From Lichenibacterium dinghuense (GTDB taxonomy: Bacteria > Pseudomonadota > Alphaproteobacteria > Rhizobiales > Beijerinckiaceae): a stretch of 64,000 nt of DNA. The first letter of the stretch is position 1; each line of letters opens with the position of its first letter. The position numbers and the translations under genes were made by a program. The notes below the pieces were generated by a model. The model did not search any database, was not told the DNA's origin, and saw nothing but the letters and a program-made list of their open reading frames with translations. The DNA is taken from the NCBI RefSeq assembly GCF_021730615.1, contig NZ_JAJLMN010000001.1, forward strand, positions 992,001 to 1,056,000, written 5' to 3'. Below are positions 43,027-54,011 of this stretch, piece by piece.

Positions 43027-43923
43027 GTGAGCCCCGGCTACCTGCCCTTCGCCGGCGCGCTCGATCTGCCGGCCTTCTTCTGCGACAACTGCGGCTTCTG
43101 GCAGCGCCACTTCGAGGTGCCGCCCTCCTGCCCGCTGTGCCTCGACGCGCGCCACGTGGTGCCCCAGACCGGCTGGAGCTTCCGCACCCTGGCCGAGGCG
43201 CAGTCGCTCTATCCCTGCCACTGGGAGAAGCTGGAGCCCGGCCTGTGGCGCTTCTGGAACGAGCCGGTGAGCGGCATCGGCTCGATGAGCTACCTGGTCG
43301 AGAGCCCGGGCGGCAACCTGATGTTCGAGGGCTGCGCGGCCTTCAGCGACGCGGCCCTCGACTTCATCGCGGGCCGCGGCGGCGTGCAGGTTCTGTCGGC
43401 CTCGCACCCGCACAGCTACGGCGCGCTGTGGCAGATCCAGGACCGATTCGACCCCGAGCTGGCGCTGCACCCCGGCGACCTCGCCTGGTCGGCCGCGGTC
43501 TGCGTCACCTGGCCCTTCGACGACTTTCTGGAGCCCCTGCCCGGCCTGGAGCTGCACCTCACGGCCGGCCACTTCGACGGGCATACCGTGCTGTACGACC
43601 GGGCGCGCAGGATCCTGTTCTGCGGCGACGCGCTGAAGTTCGAGCTCGACCCCGCGGACCGGCGCCGCGCCACGACCATCTCGGCCCACAAGGCCTTCGT
43701 GCGGGGCGTGCCGCTCACCCCGAAGGAGCTCCGGCGCTACCGCGACGTCTTCGGAGCCCTCGACTTCGCCTCGACCTTCACGCCCTTCGAGCAGGTGGTG
43801 AACAGCGGCCGCGGCGAAGCGCTGGCCTTGATCGACGACATGCTGGCGACGCGGTCCCACGCGCGGCCGGTGCCGCTGGAGGAGGTGACGCCGCGGGCGG
43901 TGACGGGTCTCGGGCGGGCGTAG
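43027..43923 (+). CDS. MBL-fold protein with N-terminal rubredoxin-like zinc ribbon
   Basis: 298 residues from GTG 43027 (GGAG 8 nt upstream). Residues 15-40 hold two Cys pairs (Cys19/22 and Cys35/38). The rest is a metallo-beta-lactamase-like fold: VLSASHPHSYGALWQ in place of the HxHxDH motif, LTAGHFDGHTVLYD and ILFCGDALKFE. The first metal motif keeps only the first His pair (HPH), so the active site is partly degenerate. Fusions of a rubredoxin-type ribbon to an MBL domain recall redox flavodiiron-type proteins, but there is no flavodoxin domain. Function unknown. Confidence 0.75.
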   Translation: MSPGYLPFAGALDLPAFFCDNCGFWQRHFEVPPSCPLCLDARHVVPQTGWSFRTLAEAQSLYPCHWEKLEPGLWRFWNEPVSGIGSMSYLVESPGGNLMFEGCAAFSDAALDFIAGRGGVQVLSASHPHSYGALWQIQDRFDPELALHPGDLAWSAAVCVTWPFDDFLEPLPGLELHLTAGHFDGHTVLYDRARRILFCGDALKFELDPADRRRATTISAHKAFVRGVPLTPKELRRYRDVFGALDFASTFTPFEQVVNSGRGEALALIDDMLATRSHARPVPLEEVTPRAVTGLGRA

Positions 43924-43969: not shown

Positions 43970-44878
43970 TCATCCCCTCAGGATCGCCACGGTGATGTTG
44001 TCGCGCCCGCCCATGCCGTTCGCCTCGGCGACGAGGCGGCGGCACACCAGCGCCGCGTCGGCGCCCCCCGCGGCCGCGTCGGCGTGGGCCTCGCCGAGCG
44101 CGCCCTCGTGGTCGTGGTAGTTCCACAGACCGTCGGTGCAGAGCAGGAGCGACGATCCGGCCGGCAGCTCCGCCGACAGCGCGTGCACCTCCAGCTCGTC
44201 GAGCGGCATGCCGAGGCACTGGGTGATGGCGTGGGCGCGGGGGTCGCGGGCCGCGGCCTCGCGGCCGAGGACGCCGCGCGCCACCGCGTCCCAGGCCCAC
44301 GAATCGTCGTGGGTGAGGAGCGTCTCGTCCGCGCCCGCGAGCCGGTAGGCGCGGCTGTCGCCCACCCAGGCGATCCCGGCCACGCCGTCCCGCACCACGG
44401 CCAGCACCACCGTGGTCTCGGGCGGGTCGAGGTCCGGGTCGACGCCGAGGCGCGGCACCCCGAGCACCGCCGCGGCCGCCGCCTCGACGCAGCGCCGCGC
44501 TTCCCCCATCACCGAGACGGCGCCGTCCGGCCCCGCCGCGAAGCGCTCCAGCGCCGCCGCGACGGCCGCGGCGGAGGCGCCCTCGGCGTTGTCGGCCGAG
44601 GACACGCCGTCCGCCACGCAGAGCAGCACGGCGCCGTCCGGCCGCCGCGCCACCGCGCCGGCGTCCTGGTTGACGGGGTGGCGCCGGCCGCGGTCGCTCG
44701 CCATGGCGAGGCGCGCGTCGATCGCCTCCTCGCAGGCGGCGGCGGGCGGCCCCGCCGGGTTCTCGGCCGGCGCGGGCGCGGCCAGGGACGCGCCGCAGCT
44801 CTCGCAGAAGCGCGCGGCCGGGTCGTCGGCCGGCTCTCCGCAGGCGGGGCAGCGCGGCGGGCTCGAAACCGCGCTCAC
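43970..44878 (-). CDS. PP2C-family Ser/Thr phosphatase with N-terminal zinc ribbon
   Basis: 302 residues from GTG 44878, which overlaps the kinase stop (GTGA). Residues 10-28 are a CxxC...CxxC ribbon (Cys10, 13, 25, 28). The PP2C domain has SDRGRRHPVNQDAGAV and VLLCVADGVSSADNAEG for the metal site, IAWVGDSRAYRLAG, LLLCTDGLWNYHDHEG and a final GRDNITVAILRG with its metal Asp. It should dephosphorylate Ser/Thr targets, most naturally the products of the kinase encoded next to it. Last gene of the seven-gene operon. Confidence 0.92.
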   Translation of the reverse strand: MSAVSSPPRCPACGEPADDPAARFCESCGASLAAPAPAENPAGPPAAACEEAIDARLAMASDRGRRHPVNQDAGAVARRPDGAVLLCVADGVSSADNAEGASAAAVAAALERFAAGPDGAVSVMGEARRCVEAAAAAVLGVPRLGVDPDLDPPETTVVLAVVRDGVAGIAWVGDSRAYRLAGADETLLTHDDSWAWDAVARGVLGREAAARDPRAHAITQCLGMPLDELEVHALSAELPAGSSLLLCTDGLWNYHDHEGALGEAHADAAAGGADAALVCRRLVAEANGMGGRDNITVAILRG

Positions 44879-47235
44879 AGCAGCGTCACCGGGCGCACCG
44901 CGTGGGCGAGGTCGACCAGCCGCGCCTTCTCGGAGCGGGACGCGGCGCGCCGCCCGGCTTGGAGGTAGGCGGCCTCGGCGCCGCGCCGCAGCGCGTTGGC
45001 GGTCATCGGCCGGCCGAGCAGGGTCACGTCCCGCCGCTCGGCCACGGTGCCCTCGGCCACGGGCTTCAGGGCCGCCGCGAAGAGGCGGGCGGTCAGCAGG
45101 TGCATCTCGGCCGTGTCGGCCTTGATGCCCTCGATGACCCCCGCGGCCCGCGCGAGCCGCGCCTCGTCGACTGCCGTGCCCATGCCGATCAGCAGCGACA
45201 CCAGCTCGGTGCGGGCCGCGACGGACAGGCTGTGGGTCGCCGGCACGGCGGACAGCGCCGCCGCGGCGTCGTCGAAGCGCCCGGCGCGGCCCTCGCAGCG
45301 CGCGAGGCCGAAGCAGGCCGAGGCGTAGGACGGGTCGGTCGCCACCACGCGGCGGTAGAGCGCGGCCGCCTGGGCGTCGCGCCCGCCGGCCTCCGCCGCG
45401 AACGCCATGGCGAGCTTGGGGGCGAGCTCGCCCGGCATCTCGAAGTAGACGCGGTCGAAGGCCGTGTAGGCCCGGTCGGCGTGGCCGGCGCCGAGGTGGA
45501 CCAGCCCGGCATACCAGTAGGCGCGCCACTCGAACTCGTTGGCCTTGAGGGCGTCGCCGAGTTCCGCGACGGCGCGATCGCCCCGCCCGACCGCGATCAG
45601 GGCCTCGGCGAGGCGGAGCTTGGCTTCGGCCGAGTTCGGGCGCTTCCGAACCAGCGCCCGGAGGCCGTCGATGCGCCGCGCGGGGTCGAGCACCGCGGCG
45701 AGGCTCAGGACGTCGGCGGCGCCGGGGTCGCCGGTGTCGAGCCGGAGCGCGGGCAGCAGCCGGGCGAGCGGCGCCGCCGCGCCCGCGCGGTCGGAGCCGT
45801 CGGCGAGGCCGTCGCCGAAGAAGACGCGGCTCTCGGCCGGCCTGGGTCCGGACTTCAGGGCCACGGTCTCGCGCAGCACGCCGAAGAGCTGGCCCTCCAT
45901 CTCCTCGGCGGTCTGGAAGCGCTGGTCGGGGTCGTCGTGGGTGGCGCGGATCAGGAAGCGGTAGAGCGGGTCGTTGGCGGCGAGGATCGGCGCGACGTCC
46001 GGCGTCGGCAGGGCGTGGACGTAGTCGGCGCGCATGCGCCGCGTGGCGGTCACGGCGCCGGTCGCCGGGTCGGTGTCCTTCTGCACGCGGTACAGGAAGT
46101 CCATCAGCAGGACGGCGAGCGTGCGGCCGACCGTGTAAAGGTCCGACACGGGCGTCGGCTCGTCGGAGGCCTCCTTGGCCGAATAGCCGTCGGTGCCGAA
46201 GACCGCGCCGTCGGGGTCGCCGATGCGGCGCACCGCGCCCATGTCGATGAGCTTCACGTCGTCGCTCTCGACCATCAGGTTGCCGGGCTTGAAGTCGCAA
46301 TAGACGAAGCCCTGCGCGTGGAGCGCGCCGAAGGCCGGCAGGATGCCGAGGATGTACGCGATGGCCTCCTCGGGCGGCAGCGGCCCGCGCTCCTCGCGGA
46401 TCGCCTCGACGGTGCGGCCGCCCACGTATTCGAGCACCATGAAGCCCTCGGGGCCTTGGCTCACGAAGTCGTAGATGCCGACGATGCGGGCGTGCTTCAC
46501 GGCGGCGAGGAACTGCCGCTCGGCCAGGGCGGCCGCGACCGCCTCGGGGTCCTTGGAATTGAGGAGGCCCTTCAGCACCACCCAGCGCGACAGGACCGCG
46601 TCCCAGCCGAGGTAGACCCAGCCCATGCCGCCGAACGCGATGGCGCCCTTGACCTCGTATTTGCCGGCCACAACGTCGCCCGGCTTCAGCTTGGGCTCGA
46701 AGTCGTAGGCCTCCGAGCACTGCGGGCAGAAGCCCTTCACGCGGTTGACGCGCGCGTCGCAGTGCGGGCAGCGGCGCTTGCCGAGCGACACCTCCGGCCG
46801 CGCGATGACCAGCGACAGCGGGTCCTGGCTCGGCTGCGGCGGGAGCGAGACGAGGCCGCCGCCGAGCGACTGGCGCCGGCTGGTGGTGCCGCGCGACTGA
46901 CGGCGGCTGGCGCGGCTGCCCTTGGTGTGGCCGACCGTGTGGCCGAGCGGCCCGGTGCGGGCGGCCGTGCCGGTCGTGCGCGACACGGTGGCGCCGCTCC
47001 AGCCGCCGGCCGCGAGGGGGCTCTCGGCCTGAGCCGCAGGCGCCGCGGCGGCGCCCCAGGGGCCGGGCTGGGCCGCGAGGTTCGGCGACGCCGTGGCGGC
47101 CGCCGCCGTCGCGACGGCGCCGGCCAGCGCGCCGCTCTCGGCGGGCCGGCCGCAGGTGGAGCACACGCCCTCGTCGATCTCGCCGCCGCAGACGCGGCCG
47201 CGCGCGTCGACGCGGGTGCAGGTCAGGGCCGCCAT
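44875..47235 (-). CDS. pknG: PknG-type Ser/Thr protein kinase (rubredoxin-kinase-TPR)
   Basis: 786 residues from ATG 47235, with GGAAGGAG 7 nt upstream. Order: a first zinc ribbon (Cys6, 16, 25, 28); a Ser/Thr/Arg-rich disordered stretch (about 80-125) where PknG is autophosphorylated in mycobacteria; a rubredoxin-like CPHC...CPQC (156-173); the kinase domain (about 193-490) with the PknG-style loop GAIAFGGMGWVYLGWD, Lys222 in VVLKGL, Asp314 in VYCDFKPGN and Asp331 in LIDMGAV (DFG replaced as in PknG); then a TPR region (about 500-786) ending KARLVDLAHAVRPVTLL. Domain order and many segments match mycobacterial PknG, including the ERQFLA, PGELAPKLA and VRP endings. Mycobacterial PknG phosphorylates the FHA protein GarA and controls glutamate metabolism. 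Confidence 0.95.
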   Translation of the reverse strand: MAALTCTRVDARGRVCGGEIDEGVCSTCGRPAESGALAGAVATAAAATASPNLAAQPGPWGAAAAPAAQAESPLAAGGWSGATVSRTTGTAARTGPLGHTVGHTKGSRASRRQSRGTTSRRQSLGGGLVSLPPQPSQDPLSLVIARPEVSLGKRRCPHCDARVNRVKGFCPQCSEAYDFEPKLKPGDVVAGKYEVKGAIAFGGMGWVYLGWDAVLSRWVVLKGLLNSKDPEAVAAALAERQFLAAVKHARIVGIYDFVSQGPEGFMVLEYVGGRTVEAIREERGPLPPEEAIAYILGILPAFGALHAQGFVYCDFKPGNLMVESDDVKLIDMGAVRRIGDPDGAVFGTDGYSAKEASDEPTPVSDLYTVGRTLAVLLMDFLYRVQKDTDPATGAVTATRRMRADYVHALPTPDVAPILAANDPLYRFLIRATHDDPDQRFQTAEEMEGQLFGVLRETVALKSGPRPAESRVFFGDGLADGSDRAGAAAPLARLLPALRLDTGDPGAADVLSLAAVLDPARRIDGLRALVRKRPNSAEAKLRLAEALIAVGRGDRAVAELGDALKANEFEWRAYWYAGLVHLGAGHADRAYTAFDRVYFEMPGELAPKLAMAFAAEAGGRDAQAAALYRRVVATDPSYASACFGLARCEGRAGRFDDAAAALSAVPATHSLSVAARTELVSLLIGMGTAVDEARLARAAGVIEGIKADTAEMHLLTARLFAAALKPVAEGTVAERRDVTLLGRPMTANALRRGAEAAYLQAGRRAASRSEKARLVDLAHAVRPVTLL

Positions 47236-47299
47236 GGTGCGCTCCTTCCGAGGCTTCCGCTCATTGTCTCGCCATGGTTCGGGACGGGGTGCGACCGCA

Positions 47300-48433
47300 T
47301 CATGGCGTCCGCCGGCTGGCGGCGAGCCCGTCCTCCCAGGCTGCGAGCAGCGCCCGCGCCCGCGCGGCGTCGAAGGGTCTCGTGTCGAGCGCCGCCGCGA
47401 CGGCCGACGAATGCGGGGCGGCAGGTTCCCGCGCCGCCAGGGCGGCGGCCTTGGCCCGCAGGGCGCGGAAGCGGCCGCGCAGGTCGTCGCGCTCGCGGAG
47501 CCGCGCGGCGACGGACTCCGCCTCCGCTTCGGCGGCGCCGCGCGCGGCGGCGCAGCCCTGCGACCATCGTTCGAGGCCGACCAGGGCGGCGTCGCCCTGC
47601 CCGGCGGCGCCGGCGGCGGCCAGCCGGTCGAGCCAGGCGGCGAGGTCGTCGGCGCCATCCACGGCCGGCGGCAGGTCGAGCAGGCCCGCGGCGTCGCGCC
47701 GGGCGCCGTCGCGCCGCCGGAGCGCGTCGCGCAGGGCCGCGAGGTCGGCGTGGGCGCGGTCGAGGCCGTCGGCCAGCGCCGCGCGCCGACGCCCGGCGGC
47801 CCCCACTTCCGCCCGCCGCGCCGCCAGGGCGGCCGCGAGGGGGGCGATGAGGCCGGCGGCCGCCAGCGGGTCGCGGTCGAGCGCGCGGGCCGCGGCGTCG
47901 AGCCTCGCCGCCAGGGGCGCCTCGGCGGCGGCCGGCTCGGCGCGCAGCGCGTCGAGCTTCAGGCGGCCGGCCGTCGCTGCGGCCGCGATCGCGGCGGCGC
48001 CGCGCCGCGCCGCCTCGAAGCCCTCCACCATCGCGTCGAGCACGGCGGCGGGGGTGATGGCGGCGCTGCGCTCGGCGGCGTCGAGCAGGCCGCGCGCGCC
48101 GAGCGGCACCGCGACGGCCGGAAGGCGGATCGAGGCGCCGTCGAGCAGCGCCGCCGCCTCACCGTCGCGGGACTGGCCGAACAGCGGGCGGCGCGCCAGG
48201 GCGGCGGCCTCCTCGACGGTGCGGGACACGAGCAGGTAGTCGGCCCACAGCCCGTCGAGCGCAGCCGCGACCCGCCGGGCCGCGGCCAGCGTCGCGCCCT
48301 CGTAGGCGCCCTCGCCGGCGAGGCGGGCGCGCAGGCGCCGCACGTCGTCGCTGCCGTTGAGGTCGGCGAGGTTGCGCGCCGCCGCGGCGAGGCGGTCCCG
48401 CCACATCTCCACGGCGCGGCGCGCGGGCTCCAC
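47300..48433 (-). CDS. helical protein of unknown function in the pknG operon
   Basis: About 377 residues from GTG 48433, 5 nt after the stop of the GlnX-like gene. No signal peptide or TM segment; the whole protein is Ala/Arg/Leu-rich helix with coiled-coil character (MWRDRLAAAARNLADL to RALLAAWEDGLAASRRTP). No family recognised. In Actinobacteria this position, between glnX and pknG, belongs to the glutamate-binding lipoprotein GlnH; this protein shows no GlnH features. The pknG start lies 64 nt downstream. GC is extremely high, so some apparent helix may be compositional. Confidence 0.72.
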   Translation of the reverse strand: MEPARRAVEMWRDRLAAAARNLADLNGSDDVRRLRARLAGEGAYEGATLAAARRVAAALDGLWADYLLVSRTVEEAAALARRPLFGQSRDGEAAALLDGASIRLPAVAVPLGARGLLDAAERSAAITPAAVLDAMVEGFEAARRGAAAIAAAATAGRLKLDALRAEPAAAEAPLAARLDAAARALDRDPLAAAGLIAPLAAALAARRAEVGAAGRRRAALADGLDRAHADLAALRDALRRRDGARRDAAGLLDLPPAVDGADDLAAWLDRLAAAGAAGQGDAALVGLERWSQGCAAARGAAEAEAESVAARLRERDDLRGRFRALRAKAAALAAREPAAPHSSAVAAALDTRPFDAARARALLAAWEDGLAASRRTP

Positions 48434-48438
48434 GGGGC

Positions 48439-49878
48439 TCAGAACCGGTACTCGTCGAGGCGCCGGCCGATGCCGAACCACGCCGCCGCGACCGCCAGGA
48501 CGAAGCCGGCCACCAGGACGGCGCCGAGCGGGGCGTCGTCGCCCTCGGCGGCGGCGATGTGAGCCGCAAATTCCGCACGATTGATGTCCAGCACCTTGCC
48601 CAGAGCATCGTCGAAACCGGCGAAGGCCCGGCGCGCGGTGCCGGGACCGTTCTGGGTCAGCGAGGCGATGGCGATCCCGCGCTGACCGTGTGAGTCGTCC
48701 GCGCGCAGGGCATCGTTGGCCGTGATGACGCGGCGCCAAGCGCCGACGAGGGCCACGGCGGCGTTCCGCTCCCCCGGGAAGGTGATGTTGCGCAGTTCCT
48801 CGCCGATGTAGCCCCCGCCGTTCGGTATGACGGACGTGCCTTTCAGGATCTGCTCGACCCGCTCCGCATCCATGTCGAGCAAGCGCCGCACCAACGATGC
48901 GTAGGTCGCGGCGTACCGACCCCGGCGATCGCTCCCCGGATCGGCGAGCAAGGAGAAAGCCTGAGCCGTCTCTGCATCCGTGGCGACGGCACCGGCCGAA
49001 GACAGGGCCGAGACGGAGTCGAAGGCGTCGGACTTGGCGACGTGCAGGTCGACTTGCGCGGCCAGGAGGCGCCAGCCGAGCAACGCCGTGACCGTGGCGA
49101 CAGCCAGCGTCGCCACGAGCAGGCCGGGGTTGAGCAGGCGTTTGGCCGTGCGCGCCACGTCCACCTGCACAGCGACGAGGCCGGCCATCAGCAGGCCGCC
49201 GGCTGCCGCCATCCACCAGATCGGCCATCGCCCGAGGTAGGCTCGGTGCTCCCGGTCGAGATGGTCGGCATTGACGCGCTCAAGGTCCACGGCGGCGGGC
49301 AGCACGATCGAGTGCAGGAGGTCGTCGGCCGCGAAGGCGAGGTCGCGGCGGGCGTCGGCGGTGCTCGCGACCGACCGGCCGACGAGTTGTTCGTAATCGC
49401 CGAGCCCCTGCAACACGCGGATGATGGGGCCGCGCTCCTCCTCGCCGTAGGTGACGTTGACGGCCGCGTCCACGATCGCGGTGCGGACGGCGCCGAGCCG
49501 CGACCGCATGGCGGACAGGGAGGGACCGTCGAGGCCCTCGCCCGACAGCATCGCCAGCGCGTAATCCGCGTTGGCGGCCGCGAGGCCGGTGCGGATCGCC
49601 TCGGCGGCCGACACGGAGGGCGCCGCGTCGTGGCCGACGGTGCGGACGATGCCGGCCGTGGCATTCAGCCCGGAGAAGCCCGCGGCGAGCCACAGCAGCG
49701 CCATCACCACGACGGCAGCGCGGCCGACCCTAAGGCGCGCCGGGAAGGGCGAGCGATACTCGCCCGGCGCCGTTCGCCCGAGCCACAGGTGCAGGACCGG
49801 CGCCGCCGTTGCGACGCCGCGCGCGAGGCCGGCGCGGAAGCTCGCCACGCTGAGGCCGGCGGGGGCGGGCAGGCTCAT
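48439..49878 (-). CDS. GlnX-like membrane sensor with two periplasmic helical domains
   Basis: 479 residues. Four TM helices are visible: about 52-72 (VVVMALLWLAAGFSG), 222-243 (WWMAAAGGLLMAGLVAVQV), 254-274 (LLVATLAVATVTALLGWRLL) and 450-470 (LGAVLVAGFVLAVAAAWFG). Between 1-2 and 3-4 lie two periplasmic helical domains of about 150 and 170 residues. This 2+2 topology with internally similar halves is that of actinobacterial GlnX, which relays extracytoplasmic amino-acid sensing to PknG. The FHA gene ends 1 nt upstream. Parts of the gene (about 48580-49300) are less GC-rich than its neighbours. Similarity is by architecture and pattern, not by alignment. Confidence 0.75.
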   Translation of the reverse strand: MSLPAPAGLSVASFRAGLARGVATAAPVLHLWLGRTAPGEYRSPFPARLRVGRAAVVVMALLWLAAGFSGLNATAGIVRTVGHDAAPSVSAAEAIRTGLAAANADYALAMLSGEGLDGPSLSAMRSRLGAVRTAIVDAAVNVTYGEEERGPIIRVLQGLGDYEQLVGRSVASTADARRDLAFAADDLLHSIVLPAAVDLERVNADHLDREHRAYLGRWPIWWMAAAGGLLMAGLVAVQVDVARTAKRLLNPGLLVATLAVATVTALLGWRLLAAQVDLHVAKSDAFDSVSALSSAGAVATDAETAQAFSLLADPGSDRRGRYAATYASLVRRLLDMDAERVEQILKGTSVIPNGGGYIGEELRNITFPGERNAAVALVGAWRRVITANDALRADDSHGQRGIAIASLTQNGPGTARRAFAGFDDALGKVLDINRAEFAAHIAAAEGDDAPLGAVLVAGFVLAVAAAWFGIGRRLDEYRF

Positions 49879-49879
49879 C

Positions 49880-50545
49880 TCACCGCGCTTCCAGCGTCAG
49901 CAGCGTCCAGGCGCCGAGGATGAGGCTGTCGCCCGCCTTCAGGGGCGCCTCGACGCCCTCCGTCAGGGGGGCGCCGTTCAGCAGAGTGCCGTTCGACGAT
50001 CCGACATCGACGCCGTAGAGGCTGCCGTCCGGGCGGCGGCAGATCTTGAGGTGGCGCGCCGACACCGACGGGTCGGCGACGGGGATCTCCGGATGGACGT
50101 CGCGCCGGCCGTTGCGGCGCCCGACGAGGTTCTCGGCGAGGTCCAAGGGGTAGGCGCGGTCGGGCTCCGGAGGGGCGTCGGCGTCGAGCCGCGCGGGGTC
50201 GCGGCTCACCACCACCCACATGTTGCCGACCGCGCCCGCGTCGGCGAAGGGCGACAGCGGCGGCGGAGCCACGGGTGGGAGCGACGGAGGCGGCGCTGCG
50301 GGCGGCGGCGGGGGCGCGGCCGGTGCGGGGGACGAAGCGGCCGAAAAATCGTGCCGGCACACCTCGCAGAAGCGCGCGCCCGGCACGCGCGGCGTGCCGC
50401 AATCGGGGCAGAGCTGCGCGGCCGTCGCCGCGGCGGCCGGCGGCGTCGGGCCGGCGGGCGCCGCCGCGGCGATGCGCAGCCCGCATTCGGAGCAGAAGTC
50501 CGGATCGTCCGACAGGTGCCCGCGCGGGCAGACGGCCTCGGTCAT
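49880..50545 (-). CDS. FHA-domain protein with double zinc ribbon
   Basis: 221 residues from ATG 50545, overlapping the vWA gene's stop by 4 nt. Two ribbons (Cys6-His10-Cys18-Cys21 and Cys46/49/60/63), a Pro/Ala linker (about 70-105), then an FHA domain (about 128-221) with LVGRRNGRRDVHPEIPVADP, the Ser-x-x-His of PSVSARHLKI and VGSSNGTLLNG, the phosphothreonine-binding set. It should read Thr-phosphorylated proteins, presumably of the kinase in the same operon, as GarA does for PknG. It lacks the N-terminal TxxETTS phospho-motif of GarA. Confidence 0.9.
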   Translation of the reverse strand: MTEAVCPRGHLSDDPDFCSECGLRIAAAAPAGPTPPAAAATAAQLCPDCGTPRVPGARFCEVCRHDFSAASSPAPAAPPPPPAAPPPSLPPVAPPPLSPFADAGAVGNMWVVVSRDPARLDADAPPEPDRAYPLDLAENLVGRRNGRRDVHPEIPVADPSVSARHLKICRRPDGSLYGVDVGSSNGTLLNGAPLTEGVEAPLKAGDSLILGAWTLLTLEAR

Positions 50546-51819
50546 GCGCCCGGCCGCCGCCGCACCGTGCGGGTGCCGCCCATCTCGAGCTCCAGCGCCT
50601 CGGCCTTGCCGGCGCCGCGCTTCAGCCGCACCGTGCCCGAGGTCGCGTCGACCACGTCGACGACCTTGTTGAGCCGCCGCGTCACGTCCTCGTTGCCCGA
50701 GGCCGCGGCGATGCGGGCCGCCTTGCCGAGCAGGCGCGTGGCGGCCGCGTCGTCGCCGCGGTCGCGCGCTTCGAGCCCGTCGCGGATCGAGGCGGCGATC
50801 TCGGCCTGTCCGGTGTAGTGGGCGACCTCCGGGTTGAGCCGCGCCGTCAGCCCCGAATCCTCGCTCCAGGTGGCGACCACCGGCGCGCCCGCGGCCTTCT
50901 GCTCGCCCGCGCCATCCCCTGCGCCCATGCCCCACACCACGGTCGGGCGGCACACCAGCATGTCCTCGCCGACCGCGCCGTCGCCCACCTCGAACACCGC
51001 GTGGTAGTCGCGCGCCTCGCGGCCCCAGGCGCCGAGGTTCCACAGGGTCGCGCGCGCGCTCTCGGGCTCGCCGAGCGCGGTGATGTCGATGTCGTCCGGG
51101 TTCATCTGGTGCAGCGACACGAGCCGCGACGAGGCCGGCTGCCACAGGCGCAGGGCCACGCGGCCGGTGGCCTTGCTGAGCGCGCGCCCGAGGCAGGCGC
51201 GGAAGTCGGCTTCGAGGTTCGCGGGCTCGGGCACGGCGTCGGCGGTGCCGAGCAGCACGGTGGAGATGCGGCGCAGGTCGTCCGGCTCCCAGTCGGTGCC
51301 GACGCCGCGGCAGTCGACGCCGATGCGCCCGCGGCAGGCCTCCACGGCGCGGCCGAGGTCCTCGCGGTCGTCGACGTCGTTCTGTCCGTCCGTGAGGAAG
51401 TAGGCGTAGCAGATCGCGTCCGGGGCGCGCTCGAACTCGCGGCGCAGGGCGGACAGGCCCTTGGACATGAAGGTCGCGCCGTTGGCCGAGATGTTCTGCA
51501 CGGCGCGGTGCGCGGCGGCGCGGTTGGCGTCGGTCGCCTCGCAGAGCGGCACCACGATCTGCGAGGCGGTGCCGAAGGTGATCACCGTGAACAGCGCGTC
51601 CCGCGGCAGCAGGTCGATGCAGCGCCGCGCCGCGTGGCGGGCCGCCTCCATCTTGCCGGCGACGTTCATGGAGCTCGAATTGTCGAGCACGATGCCGACC
51701 GCGCGCCGGGCCCCGCCGGTGCCCGCCTCGCCGTCCGCCGTCACGGTCAGGATGGCGTCGAGCCGCCGCACGCCGGGCGCGAGGTGCGGGTTGAAGAAGC
51801 TGTCCAGCCTGAACTGCAT
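50542..51819 (-). CDS. von Willebrand factor A (vWA) domain protein
   Basis: 425 residues. The vWA domain (about 35-215) carries a full MIDAS motif Asp-x-Ser-x-Ser in VLDNSSSMN, a Thr in NGATFMSKG and Asp in FLTDGQNDVDD. It is followed by a beta-rich domain (about 240-340) and a helical end (IRDGLEARDRGDDAAATRLLG). Similar stand-alone vWA proteins occur beside PP2C and FHA genes in bacterial kinase clusters and act as metal-dependent scaffolds. Its stop overlaps the FHA start (ATGA). Confidence 0.9.
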   Translation of the reverse strand: MQFRLDSFFNPHLAPGVRRLDAILTVTADGEAGTGGARRAVGIVLDNSSSMNVAGKMEAARHAARRCIDLLPRDALFTVITFGTASQIVVPLCEATDANRAAAHRAVQNISANGATFMSKGLSALRREFERAPDAICYAYFLTDGQNDVDDREDLGRAVEACRGRIGVDCRGVGTDWEPDDLRRISTVLLGTADAVPEPANLEADFRACLGRALSKATGRVALRLWQPASSRLVSLHQMNPDDIDITALGEPESARATLWNLGAWGREARDYHAVFEVGDGAVGEDMLVCRPTVVWGMGAGDGAGEQKAAGAPVVATWSEDSGLTARLNPEVAHYTGQAEIAASIRDGLEARDRGDDAAATRLLGKAARIAAASGNEDVTRRLNKVVDVVDATSGTVRLKRGAGKAEALELEMGGTRTVRRRPGA

Positions 51820-51849
51820 GATCCCCTGCCCCCGCCCGCCCGTCCCGGA

Positions 51850-53025
51850 TCAGGCCGGGCGTTCCGCCTGGACGGCCCGCTCGCCCGCGGCGGCGAGCCC
51901 GTCCACGTAACGCTTCTTCGTGCCTTCGAGTGCCAGCTGCGCCTCGGCCCGCTCGGCGCGGTTGCGGGCGTCGATGGCGGCGCCCCGGTCGATCATGCCG
52001 ATGATGCGGTCCGCGATCTCGCCCATGGCGGCCACCTCGCCGAGCGCGCCGCCCTCGCTCTCCTTGGCGCGGAGGTAGGCGGCCTCCAGCGCGTCGACGC
52101 CGGCCACGTTCATCTGCTGCGCCAGGCGGCGGCGGGCCTCGCTGGCCTTGGACGCGTCGGTGATGCTCTTCAGCGCCGCGATGCGCAGGATGGCGGACTT
52201 CAGCCGCGGCAGGTCGAACAGCAGCGTGTCGAGGATGTTGCGGTATTCGATGCGCCCCGCCGTCTGGGCGTTGCGGGTCTGCGGCACGGACAGCATGGCG
52301 TCGCCCATGGCCACCGCGAGGCGCAGCAGCCGCGTCTCGAAGCCGTTGATCTGCTCGCCGAAGTCCCGCACGGCCGCCAGCGCGCTCGGGTCGCGCGATC
52401 GGAGCGCGTCGCGGCGCTCGCGGGCGAAGCGGGCGCGCTCGCGGTCGAGCACGATCTGGCCGGCCGCCACCTGCACCTCCAGCTCGCGCAGGGAGCGCAG
52501 GTTCTCCGCCACCAGCTTGTCCATGCGGCTGTCCATGGCGGCGAGCCGGCCCATCTCGATGCGCCCGCGCTTCTCGATGTCGGAGAACTGGTCGATCACC
52601 AGGCGGTAGTCGGCGCGGAAGCGCGTGAAGGCCGACACGTATCGGCCGACCACGGGCAGGTCGCCCGCTATCCGCACCAGCGCGGTGCCGCGCCCCTCGG
52701 CCTCGCGCCGGAGGCCGGGGATGTCGAGCGCCTTCACGCCGCTGGCGAGCTCGGCCAAGAGCCGCCCGGACACGCCGGCGTCGGCCGTACGGATGCCGTC
52801 GAGCAGCTCGTCCAGGAAGCTGTTGGCGCGGGTCTGGGTGTCGGCGCCGAAGCCGTTGACGGCGGCGCCGTCGAGCGCCGGCAGCTCCGCGGCGATCCGC
52901 TCGGCCGCGGCGCGGTCGTCGGGCGACAGCCGCGCGAGGTCGAGCCTGCGCTCGGCGTCCCACCGGGCGGCGAGGTCGGGCACGGCGGCGGCCGTGGGGG
53001 CGGCGTGGGGGTCGGCGGCGGTCAC
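51850..53025 (-). CDS. TelA/KlaA-family (toxic anion resistance) protein
   Basis: 391 residues, first gene of the operon. Mostly helical with the family-like segments TQTRANSFLDELLDGIRTA, YVSAFTRFRADYRLVIDQF, RSLRELEVQVAAGQIVLDRE and KSAILRIAALKSITDA. KlaA/TelA proteins were named for tellurite resistance on RK2-type plasmids but occur widely next to TerY-like vWA proteins. The start ATG 53025 is near an Ala/Pro-rich tract. No terBCDE genes are present, so tellurite resistance is not implied here. Confidence 0.85.
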   Translation of the reverse strand: MTAADPHAAPTAAAVPDLAARWDAERRLDLARLSPDDRAAAERIAAELPALDGAAVNGFGADTQTRANSFLDELLDGIRTADAGVSGRLLAELASGVKALDIPGLRREAEGRGTALVRIAGDLPVVGRYVSAFTRFRADYRLVIDQFSDIEKRGRIEMGRLAAMDSRMDKLVAENLRSLRELEVQVAAGQIVLDRERARFARERRDALRSRDPSALAAVRDFGEQINGFETRLLRLAVAMGDAMLSVPQTRNAQTAGRIEYRNILDTLLFDLPRLKSAILRIAALKSITDASKASEARRRLAQQMNVAGVDALEAAYLRAKESEGGALGEVAAMGEIADRIIGMIDRGAAIDARNRAERAEAQLALEGTKKRYVDGLAAAGERAVQAERPA

Positions 53026-53186
53026 GGTCGAGCCTCGGTCATGGTCCGGGCGCCGGCGGGCGGTCGGACGGCGCCGCGCCCGCGGCGAGCAGCCCGACGA
53101 CGGCGGCGAGGTTGACGGCGAGAGTGCGGAGCGAAGCCACGGCGCCGAGGCTACATCGATCCCCCTAGCGACGCCAGACGGCGACG

Positions 53187-54011
53187 CTACCCTTCCCAGA
53201 ACTCCGGCACGGCCGGCGACAGCAGCCCGCCGATCCGGACGGGCGCGACCCTCACGGCGAGCCCCGTGCGGTCGTCGGTCTCGACCGCGATGCCGCAGAG
53301 GGTCGCGGGGCCGTCGGCGGGCTCGTAGCGGGAGCCGGGCGTGCGCTGGACGAAGCGGCGGATCGGCTCCTCCTTGGCGACGCCGATCACGCTGTCGTAG
53401 TCGCCCGTCATGCCGGCGTCGGTCAGGTAGGCCGTGCCGCCCGGCAGCACGCGGCCGTCCGCCGTGGGGATGTGGGTGTGGGTGCCGACGACGAGCGAGG
53501 CCCGGCCGTCGAGCACGTGGCCGAGCGCCACCTTCTCGCTCGTCGCCTCGGCGTGGACGTCGACCACCACCGCGTCGCAGGCCACGCCGAGCGGGCAGGC
53601 CTCGATCTCGCGCTCCAGCCCGGCGAAGGGGTCATCGAGCGGATCCATGAAGACGCGGCCCATCACGTTGAGGACGAGCGCGCGGCGGCCGTCGTGGAGG
53701 TCGACCAGGGCGGCGCCGCGGCCGGGCGTACCGGGCGGGTAGTTCAGCGGCCGCACGAGGCGGGGCTGGCGGTCGATGAACACCAGGGCCTCGCGCTGGT
53801 CGAAGGCGTGGTTGCCGAGCGTGACCGCGTCGGCACCCGCATCCAGGATCTCGTCGCAGATCTTCTCGGTGATGCCCTTGCCGCCGGCCGCGTTCTCGCC
53901 GTTGACCACCACGAGGTCGAGCCGCCAGCGCGCGCGCAGGTTGGGCAGCTCAGCCGCCACCGCGGCCCTCCCGGAGCGCCCCATCACGTCGCCGACGAAG
54001 AGGATGCGCAA
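53187..54011 (-). CDS. YmdB/TIGR00282-family metallophosphoesterase
   Basis: 274 residues. MRILFVGDVMGRSGRAAV, LVVVNGENAAGGKGITEK, VTLGNHAFDQREA (Asn-His of the dimetal site), VDVHAEATSEKVAL and VVGTHTHIPTADGRV form the complete metallophosphoesterase site. In Bacillus the homologue YmdB is a phosphodiesterase acting on 2',3'-cAMP and influencing biofilm formation. It starts 4 nt after the 5-FCL stop on the same strand, so the two genes are co-transcribed. Confidence 0.93.
   Translation of the reverse strand: MRILFVGDVMGRSGRAAVAAELPNLRARWRLDLVVVNGENAAGGKGITEKICDEILDAGADAVTLGNHAFDQREALVFIDRQPRLVRPLNYPPGTPGRGAALVDLHDGRRALVLNVMGRVFMDPLDDPFAGLEREIEACPLGVACDAVVVDVHAEATSEKVALGHVLDGRASLVVGTHTHIPTADGRVLPGGTAYLTDAGMTGDYDSVIGVAKEEPIRRFVQRTPGSRYEPADGPATLCGIAVETDDRTGLAVRVAPVRIGGLLSPAVPEFWEG

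Follow-up and report, generated by a model that had tools for sequence, protein, structure and literature searches.

Published accounts confine the Ser/Thr kinase PknG largely to Actinobacteria and name homologues in one species each of Chloroflexi and Cyanobacteria (PMC8546545). Its best described pathway links a binding protein, GlnH, and a membrane protein, GlnX, to PknG and an FHA protein, GarA or OdhI (PMC6069109, PMC8546545, PMC9769921). Known GlnX has four transmembrane (TM) helices and two periplasmic domains (PMC9769921), the TPR domain of PknG is proposed to take the signal from GlnX, and autophosphorylated Thr residues in the PknG N-terminus dock the FHA substrate, in which ETTS is the phosphosite motif (PMC8546545). 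PknG-linked GlnH homologues have all been predicted to bind amino acids (PMC6069109). A second group of described systems, the TerY-P triad and actinobacterial kinase-PP2C-vWA sets, combines zinc-ribbon kinases with PP2C and vWA proteins in stress and conflict contexts (PMC11090510, PMC7159879). We describe a relative of the first system in an alphaproteobacterium: in a 64,000-nucleotide stretch of the Lichenibacterium dinghuense genome (contig NZ_JAJLMN010000001.1, positions 992,001 to 1,056,000; hereafter the window), a seven-gene PknG-GlnX operon encodes a probable receptor of a known kind in an unexpected host, with extra partners added and its binding protein apparently lost.

The operon occupies positions 43970-53025 on the minus strand and encodes, from 5' to 3', a TelA-like protein, a vWA protein, a zinc-ribbon FHA protein, a GlnX-like membrane protein, a helical protein without an assigned family that we call Y5, PknG, and a PP2C-type phosphatase. 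The six junctions are, in this order, a 30-nt gap, a 4-nt overlap, gaps of 1, 5 and 64 nt, and a further 4-nt overlap; the gene overlaps suggest transcription as one unit. A scan for promoters and terminators returned none of either in the operon (0.1 and 1.3 in shuffled sequence) and is uninformative at this G+C content. A first-pass annotation of this DNA had drawn seven genes on one strand with overlaps or short gaps, and that layout is confirmed: the open reading frames lie where it placed them, all frames are open, the domain scores are far above chance, and the operon is genuine and well preserved. With the GlnH-GlnX-PknG-GarA/OdhI pathway it shares the PknG domain order, a Thr-containing N-terminal kinase tail, a co-encoded four-TM protein of GlnX type and an FHA partner (PMC6069109, PMC8546545, PMC9769921). 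It differs in its alphaproteobacterial host, in lacking GlnH, in a zinc-ribbon type of FHA protein without ETTS, and in the addition of PP2C, vWA, TelA and Y5.

The kinase (44875-47235, minus strand, 786 aa) consists of a zinc ribbon, a rubredoxin domain, a non-RD kinase domain and a PknG TPR domain. The last of these (PknG_TPR, PF16918), C-terminal to the kinase domain, scores 176 bits against a cut-off of 27 (1.2e-51); PknG_rubred (PF16919, 5.2e-13), with its two CxxC pairs at C156/C159/C170/C173, precedes the kinase domain, itself matched by Pkinase at 6.6e-28. The closest solved structure is a PknG, aligned across residues 123-784 (6.6e-108); the alignment takes in the rubredoxin cysteines and the LGGGLV segment as well as the catalytic loop (YCDFKPGN in the window protein, YNDLKPEN in the solved one) and the TPR domain. 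The active-site residues are K222 and Y-C-D314-x-K316. NCBIfam ranks the PknB/PASTA family highest, with 124 bits where 450 are required and a match confined to the kinase domain; no PknG model appears among the 25 of 26 matching families listed. In a midpoint-rooted tree, whose long branches were flagged by the tree program, the kinases of the window and of Lichenibacterium minor join four actinobacterial PknGs in one clade, set apart from three other kinases with 100/99 support. The alignment thus bears out the PknG-type kinase that the first-pass annotation had proposed, and by these comparisons the protein is a genuine PknG, not a generic Hanks kinase; at E 1e-5 the window genome has three matches to Hanks kinases. 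The PknG of Nonomuraea gerenzanensis shares with the window kinase an additional zinc ribbon at the N-terminus (C6, C16, C25, C28 in the window protein, by eye), which was not seen, again by eye, in two Nocardia or the Tsukamurella proteins. Just before LGGGLV lies Thr117-Thr118-Ser119, whose threonines we take to stand at the place of mycobacterial Thr63/Thr64; both the Thr pair and the residues around it are unchanged in L. minor, although the two PknGs are in any case about 90-91% identical overall.

The GlnX-family membrane protein (48439-49878, minus strand, 479 aa) matches NF058618 over residues 46-478 (2.7e-59), its 201 bits falling short of the 250 required; the same model gives 179 bits in L. 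minor, 281 in Nonomuraea, 469 in Nocardia and 380 in Tsukamurella. Hydropathy places four hydrophobic TM peaks at 51-69, 219-237, 248-266 and 452-470, a pattern that implies two periplasmic domains. Neither this protein nor Y5 has a Pfam match. The GlnX-like sensor named at first pass is supported as a four-TM protein related to the GlnX family, with a score below the family threshold.

The operon had also been called complete, a description that its upstream end contradicts. The L. minor operon opens with a gene for a PstS-type binding protein (locus L003, 3122-4192), placed directly before telA. There the codon aligned to the GTG start of the window telA is CTG and overlaps the pstS-like stop by 4 nt, so that telA of L. 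minor may start elsewhere. The window retains a remnant of 33 codons (53039-53140, minus strand). Compared by blastn with the pstS-like region of L. minor, 53027-53186 aligns over 121 columns (53182-53065) at 78.5% identity, with 71 bits and E 5.8e-17; none of 100 shuffles exceeded 38 bits. The match covers the upstream region, the start codon and the signal peptide (about 25 codons); the mature domain is gone, and the reading frame ends about eight unmatched codons after the match. The PstS-type gene thus appears to have been lost in the window species, and a GlnH-type binding protein is present in neither Lichenibacterium locus.

The L. minor protein scores 272 bits against TIGR00975 PstS (cut-off 205), up to 285 bits against solved PstS chains, and 124 bits against a chain named PstS 1. 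The former chains we take to be from E. coli and the latter from M. tuberculosis, in which case the binding protein would be a local addition, a PstS of proteobacterial type. Compared with the other PstS match of L. minor it shows 47% identity, and the window genome has only that other kind, likewise 47% identical to the operon protein. By family the L. minor protein is phosphate-type, and phosphate may be its ligand; a PstS-headed operon falls outside the prediction that PknG-linked binding proteins bind amino acids (PMC6069109). Inspection by eye of the open reading frames listed beside the L. minor operon PstS revealed no pst transporter genes.

The remaining five proteins are as follows. 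The FHA protein (49880-50545, minus strand, 221 aa; PF00498 4.6e-12, PF12773) carries its zinc ribbons N-terminally. Phosphothreonine reading by FHA domains depends on Gly-Arg, Ser-x-x-His and Asn-Gly motifs, seen here as GRR at 142, VSARH at 161 and SSNGT (NGT at 185). It is the sole FHA match (E 0.001) in the 6.1-Mb window genome; because it is also encoded in the same operon, it is the likeliest partner of the kinase. The vWA protein (50542-51819, minus strand, 425 aa) combines PF13519 with a VWA_3_C tail (PF18571, 2.1e-14) and has the MIDAS-like motifs DNSSS at 46, GAT at 114 and TDG at 143; PF18571 occurs in one of 398 sampled Pseudomonadota, namely the window's own genome. TelA (51850-53025, minus strand, 391 aa, GTG start; PF05816 6.6e-21) is the single PF05816 match in the window genome, and four of the six genomes of the genus have none, so TelA travels with the module. 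Y5 (47300-48433, minus strand, 377 aa, GTG start) is nearly all helix in its AlphaFold model (pLDDT 65) and has no NCBIfam match. The phosphatase (43970-44878, minus strand, 302 aa; PF13672, PP2C_2, 1.5e-15) reaches 117 bits against the NCBIfam Stp1 family (1e-33; cut-off 230). It has an N-terminal zinc ribbon, and the catalytic motifs DRGRRHPVNQD, ADGV, GDSR and RDNIT, which include the Asp motifs that count for metal binding in PP2C enzymes, are intact.

To place the operon in its lineage, PF16918 was used as a marker. It occurs in one of 289 sampled Alphaproteobacteria and two of 398 sampled Pseudomonadota (the window genome counted in both; up to 7 and 5 candidates, respectively, were scored per genome, so single misses are possible), in none of 146 genomes of another phylum, and in two of 60 relatives, the window species and L. 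minor, which are two of the six genomes of the genus. The second match in Pseudomonadota is partial (41.5 bits), has no GlnX, vWA, FHA or TelA around it in 19.9 kb, and was not counted as another PknG module. Loci from Bacillota and Deltaproteobacteria, aligned over residues 156-469 and 192-450 at 27-28% identity, fall outside the PknG clade and were also set aside. Among plasmids, tblastn found five records with 80% of PknG, one for vWA, and none for GlnX or TelA. In L. minor all seven genes stand in the same order at the same place, between a YmdB gene and an MBL-fold-like gene that keep their positions both there and in a third congener, G290. In G290 the site is empty: the two flanking genes converge 10 nt apart, compared with 9,263 nt in the window. 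YmdB is 96% identical to that of the window in L. minor and 91% in G290. Since G290 is the next relative by YmdB and its site is empty, gain of the operon as a block before the split of the window species and L. minor is the simplest reading, with loss in G290 as the alternative. In the three other congeners, only YmdB and a neighbouring gene, FCL, were matched in 19.9-kb stretches, and PF16918 was not detected.

The closest counterpart is actinobacterial. In Nonomuraea gerenzanensis one run (locus L006, 10550-19011) holds Y5, PknG, PP2C, vWA, zinc-ribbon FHA, GlnX and a GlnH-type protein. Local identities to the window proteins are 40% for PknG, 36% for FHA, 34% for vWA, 32% for PP2C and 28% for GlnX. 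The two clusters have in common Y5, a PknG with an N-terminal zinc ribbon, PP2C, vWA, zinc-ribbon FHA and GlnX; they differ in gene order and in the GlnH-type SBP_bac_3 protein of Nonomuraea, where TelA was not found in 25.9 kb. Y5 and the gene before PknG in Nonomuraea appear related by global alignment scores compared with 500 shuffles (z 4.0-5.9; helical operon proteins used as controls, TelA and GlnX, gave 0.8 and -0.6 with 200 shuffles each), a weaker case than for the other partners, as BLASTP (E 0.44) and hhalign (E 0.062, probability 0.9%) returned no significant match. Among the loci compared, Nonomuraea is the only actinomycete with the expanded module. The Tsukamurella and Nocardia farcinica stretches hold GlnX, GlnH and PknG only; none of the Nocardia and Tsukamurella stretches showed a vWA, FHA, PP2C or TelA gene next to PknG. 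On a Nocardia plasmid (L008, 1-14034) PknG lies downstream of an NAD-glutamate dehydrogenase and an amino-acid permease, with no GlnX or GlnH detected in 26 kb. The co-occurrence expected at first pass consequently holds in L. minor for all genes and in Nonomuraea for all except TelA, and does not extend to PP2C, FHA, vWA and TelA in Nocardia or Tsukamurella. A limited reading of open-licence papers, without their figures (among them that of the operon in PMC6069109), turned up no description of the expanded set. The Nonomuraea record (NZ_LT559118.1) is filed as an 11.85-Mb plasmid and looks like a chromosome.

We consider it probable, with some reserve, that the operon is a block-acquired PknG module of actinobacterial type that works as a transmembrane Ser/Thr-kinase receptor. 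GlnX would sense a periplasmic signal, originally through a PstS-type binding protein, whose gene L. minor retains; in the window species the input may now reach GlnX directly or through another protein. GlnX would hand the signal to the PknG TPR domain, and PknG would autophosphorylate its N-terminal Thr cluster and thereby recruit the zinc-ribbon FHA protein. FHA, vWA, TelA and Y5 might then form an output complex that the PP2C resets. Several points weigh against this reading. GlnX lies below the NCBIfam cut-off and its structure model is poor (pLDDT 47.5); the interactions among the module proteins are predicted from sequence; no role in PknG signalling has been established for TelA, vWA or Y5; and if the binding protein was the sensor, its loss may have interrupted the circuit. 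Nonomuraea PknG shows no visible Thr-Thr pair and is also without the LGGGLV segment. Finally, the four actinobacterial PknGs group together (91/93) and the Lichenibacterium proteins are not nested among them; given this grouping, the long branches and the midpoint root, the tree does not indicate a donor.

An alphaproteobacterial PknG-GlnX module widens the view of PknG as mostly actinobacterial (PMC8546545). It also joins a phosphatase, an FHA reader, vWA and TelA in one unit, offers a possible signalling context for TelA-family proteins, and affords a natural experiment on the rewiring of bacterial Ser/Thr kinase receptors towards new ligands. A broader version, which we put forward tentatively and regard as rather doubtful, treats the PknG/GlnX pair as a general portable receptor that works with interchangeable solute-binding proteins, the amino-acid type GlnH in actinomycetes and the phosphate type PstS in L. 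minor, and has none in the window species. Phosphatase and FHA/vWA/TelA output would both be supplied by the module itself, and the mycobacterial GarA switch would be one specialised branch. On this view Lichenibacterium would represent a natural transplant, rewired in both ligand and output.

An unlikely alternative is that the operon is a TerY-P-like triad for metal or oxyanion stress or against phage, with GlnX merely as membrane anchor. Zinc-ribbon kinase-PP2C-vWA triads are indeed described in stress and conflict systems and resemble the operon in their three co-encoded genes and zinc ribbons, and they lack GlnX or a binding protein as described; PknG is not named in PMC7159879 (PMC11090510, PMC7159879). 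The TelA family is named for toxic-anion resistance, and among the PADLOC models those for kinases match with E values down to 4.2e-38 and a candidate one for PP2C with 9.8e-8. The kinase matches, as far as listed (25 of 34), all lie in the generic kinase domain, however, and the domain order differs: zinc ribbon and rubredoxin are N-terminal and the TPR domain C-terminal in the window kinase, whereas the TerY-P kinase ribbon is C-terminal (PMC11090510). Pfam detects no nuclease, restriction or ATPase domain among the seven proteins, the flanking genes stay in place in L. minor and G290, and other members of the module encode a binding protein.

Sensing of glutamate or aspartate as in Mycobacterium and Corynebacterium, where the phosphorylated FHA protein frees 2-oxoglutarate dehydrogenase and glutamate dehydrogenase, was the precedent named in the first-pass annotation and is improbable here. 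A true PknG, a GlnX-family protein and an FHA protein do stand side by side, as in the published pathway (PMC6069109, PMC9769921), yet neither Lichenibacterium locus has GlnH and the L. minor binding protein is PstS-type. With the OdhI model NF041660 (cut-off 200) the window FHA protein reaches 19.5 bits, and with FhaB (cut-off 125) 23.2; it lacks ETTS, and L. minor FHA has one Thr-Thr at 35 that is not ETTS. Neither a GarA/OdhI orthologue nor a second FHA match was found in the window genome. The large NAD-glutamate dehydrogenase is among the GarA targets, and its family, PF05088, has no match in the window genome, with a positive Caulobacter control. Because the FHA protein is not GarA or OdhI, ETTS is absent and PF05088 is unmatched, the mycobacterial output is unlikely; GarA has moreover been called unique to Actinobacteria (PMC12321487). 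Glutamate sensing is thus not supported for the window operon, and judged by its gene and genome content the module is not a member of the GarA/OdhI pathway, of whose defining features GlnH, GarA/OdhI and PF05088 are all three missing.

We give similarly little credence to the idea that a recently acquired operon is losing function, its binding-protein gene cut to a stub and its GlnX drifting. Calculated for the window against L. minor by the simple Nei-Gojobori method, ratios of nonsynonymous to synonymous substitution (dN/dS) are indeed highest for GlnX (0.46) and Y5 (0.40), followed by PP2C (0.26), TelA (0.25), FHA (0.22), vWA (0.18) and PknG (0.16), with 0.10 and 0.13 for two flanking genes. 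GlnX is only 32-50% identical to L. minor over residues 321-440, its least conserved stretch, which lies in the second periplasmic domain. Against decay, all seven frames are open, the catalytic and MIDAS-like motifs are intact, PknG and vWA have low ratios, and the change in GlnX is not uniform, residues 41-200 still being 75-85% identical and 201-320 50-60%. The seven genes look to be under purifying selection, and binding-protein loss together with fast change of the second GlnX periplasmic domain suggests, from these two genomes, an altered input.

Two readings were rejected: a defence system, for which the PADLOC kinase matches listed (25 of 34) lie in the kinase domain and the one PP2C match is weak, and viral carriage of PknG, for which a single-protein search of IMG/VR gave no pattern match and a six-sequence PknG alignment gave 66 stretches with a pattern match, none confirmed.

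Outside the module, the upstream flank is the TIGR00282/YmdB metallophosphoesterase (53187-54011, minus strand). Its match in the congener G293 (locus L017, G293:C92:313647-314468) has one internal TAG, with a second partial YmdB about 1 kb further on. The downstream flank (43027-43923, plus strand) is an MBL-fold-like protein, named by eye and without a match in NCBIfam; it converges on the operon, stands beside it in L. minor as well, and carries, by eye, an N-terminal CxxC...CxxC ribbon.

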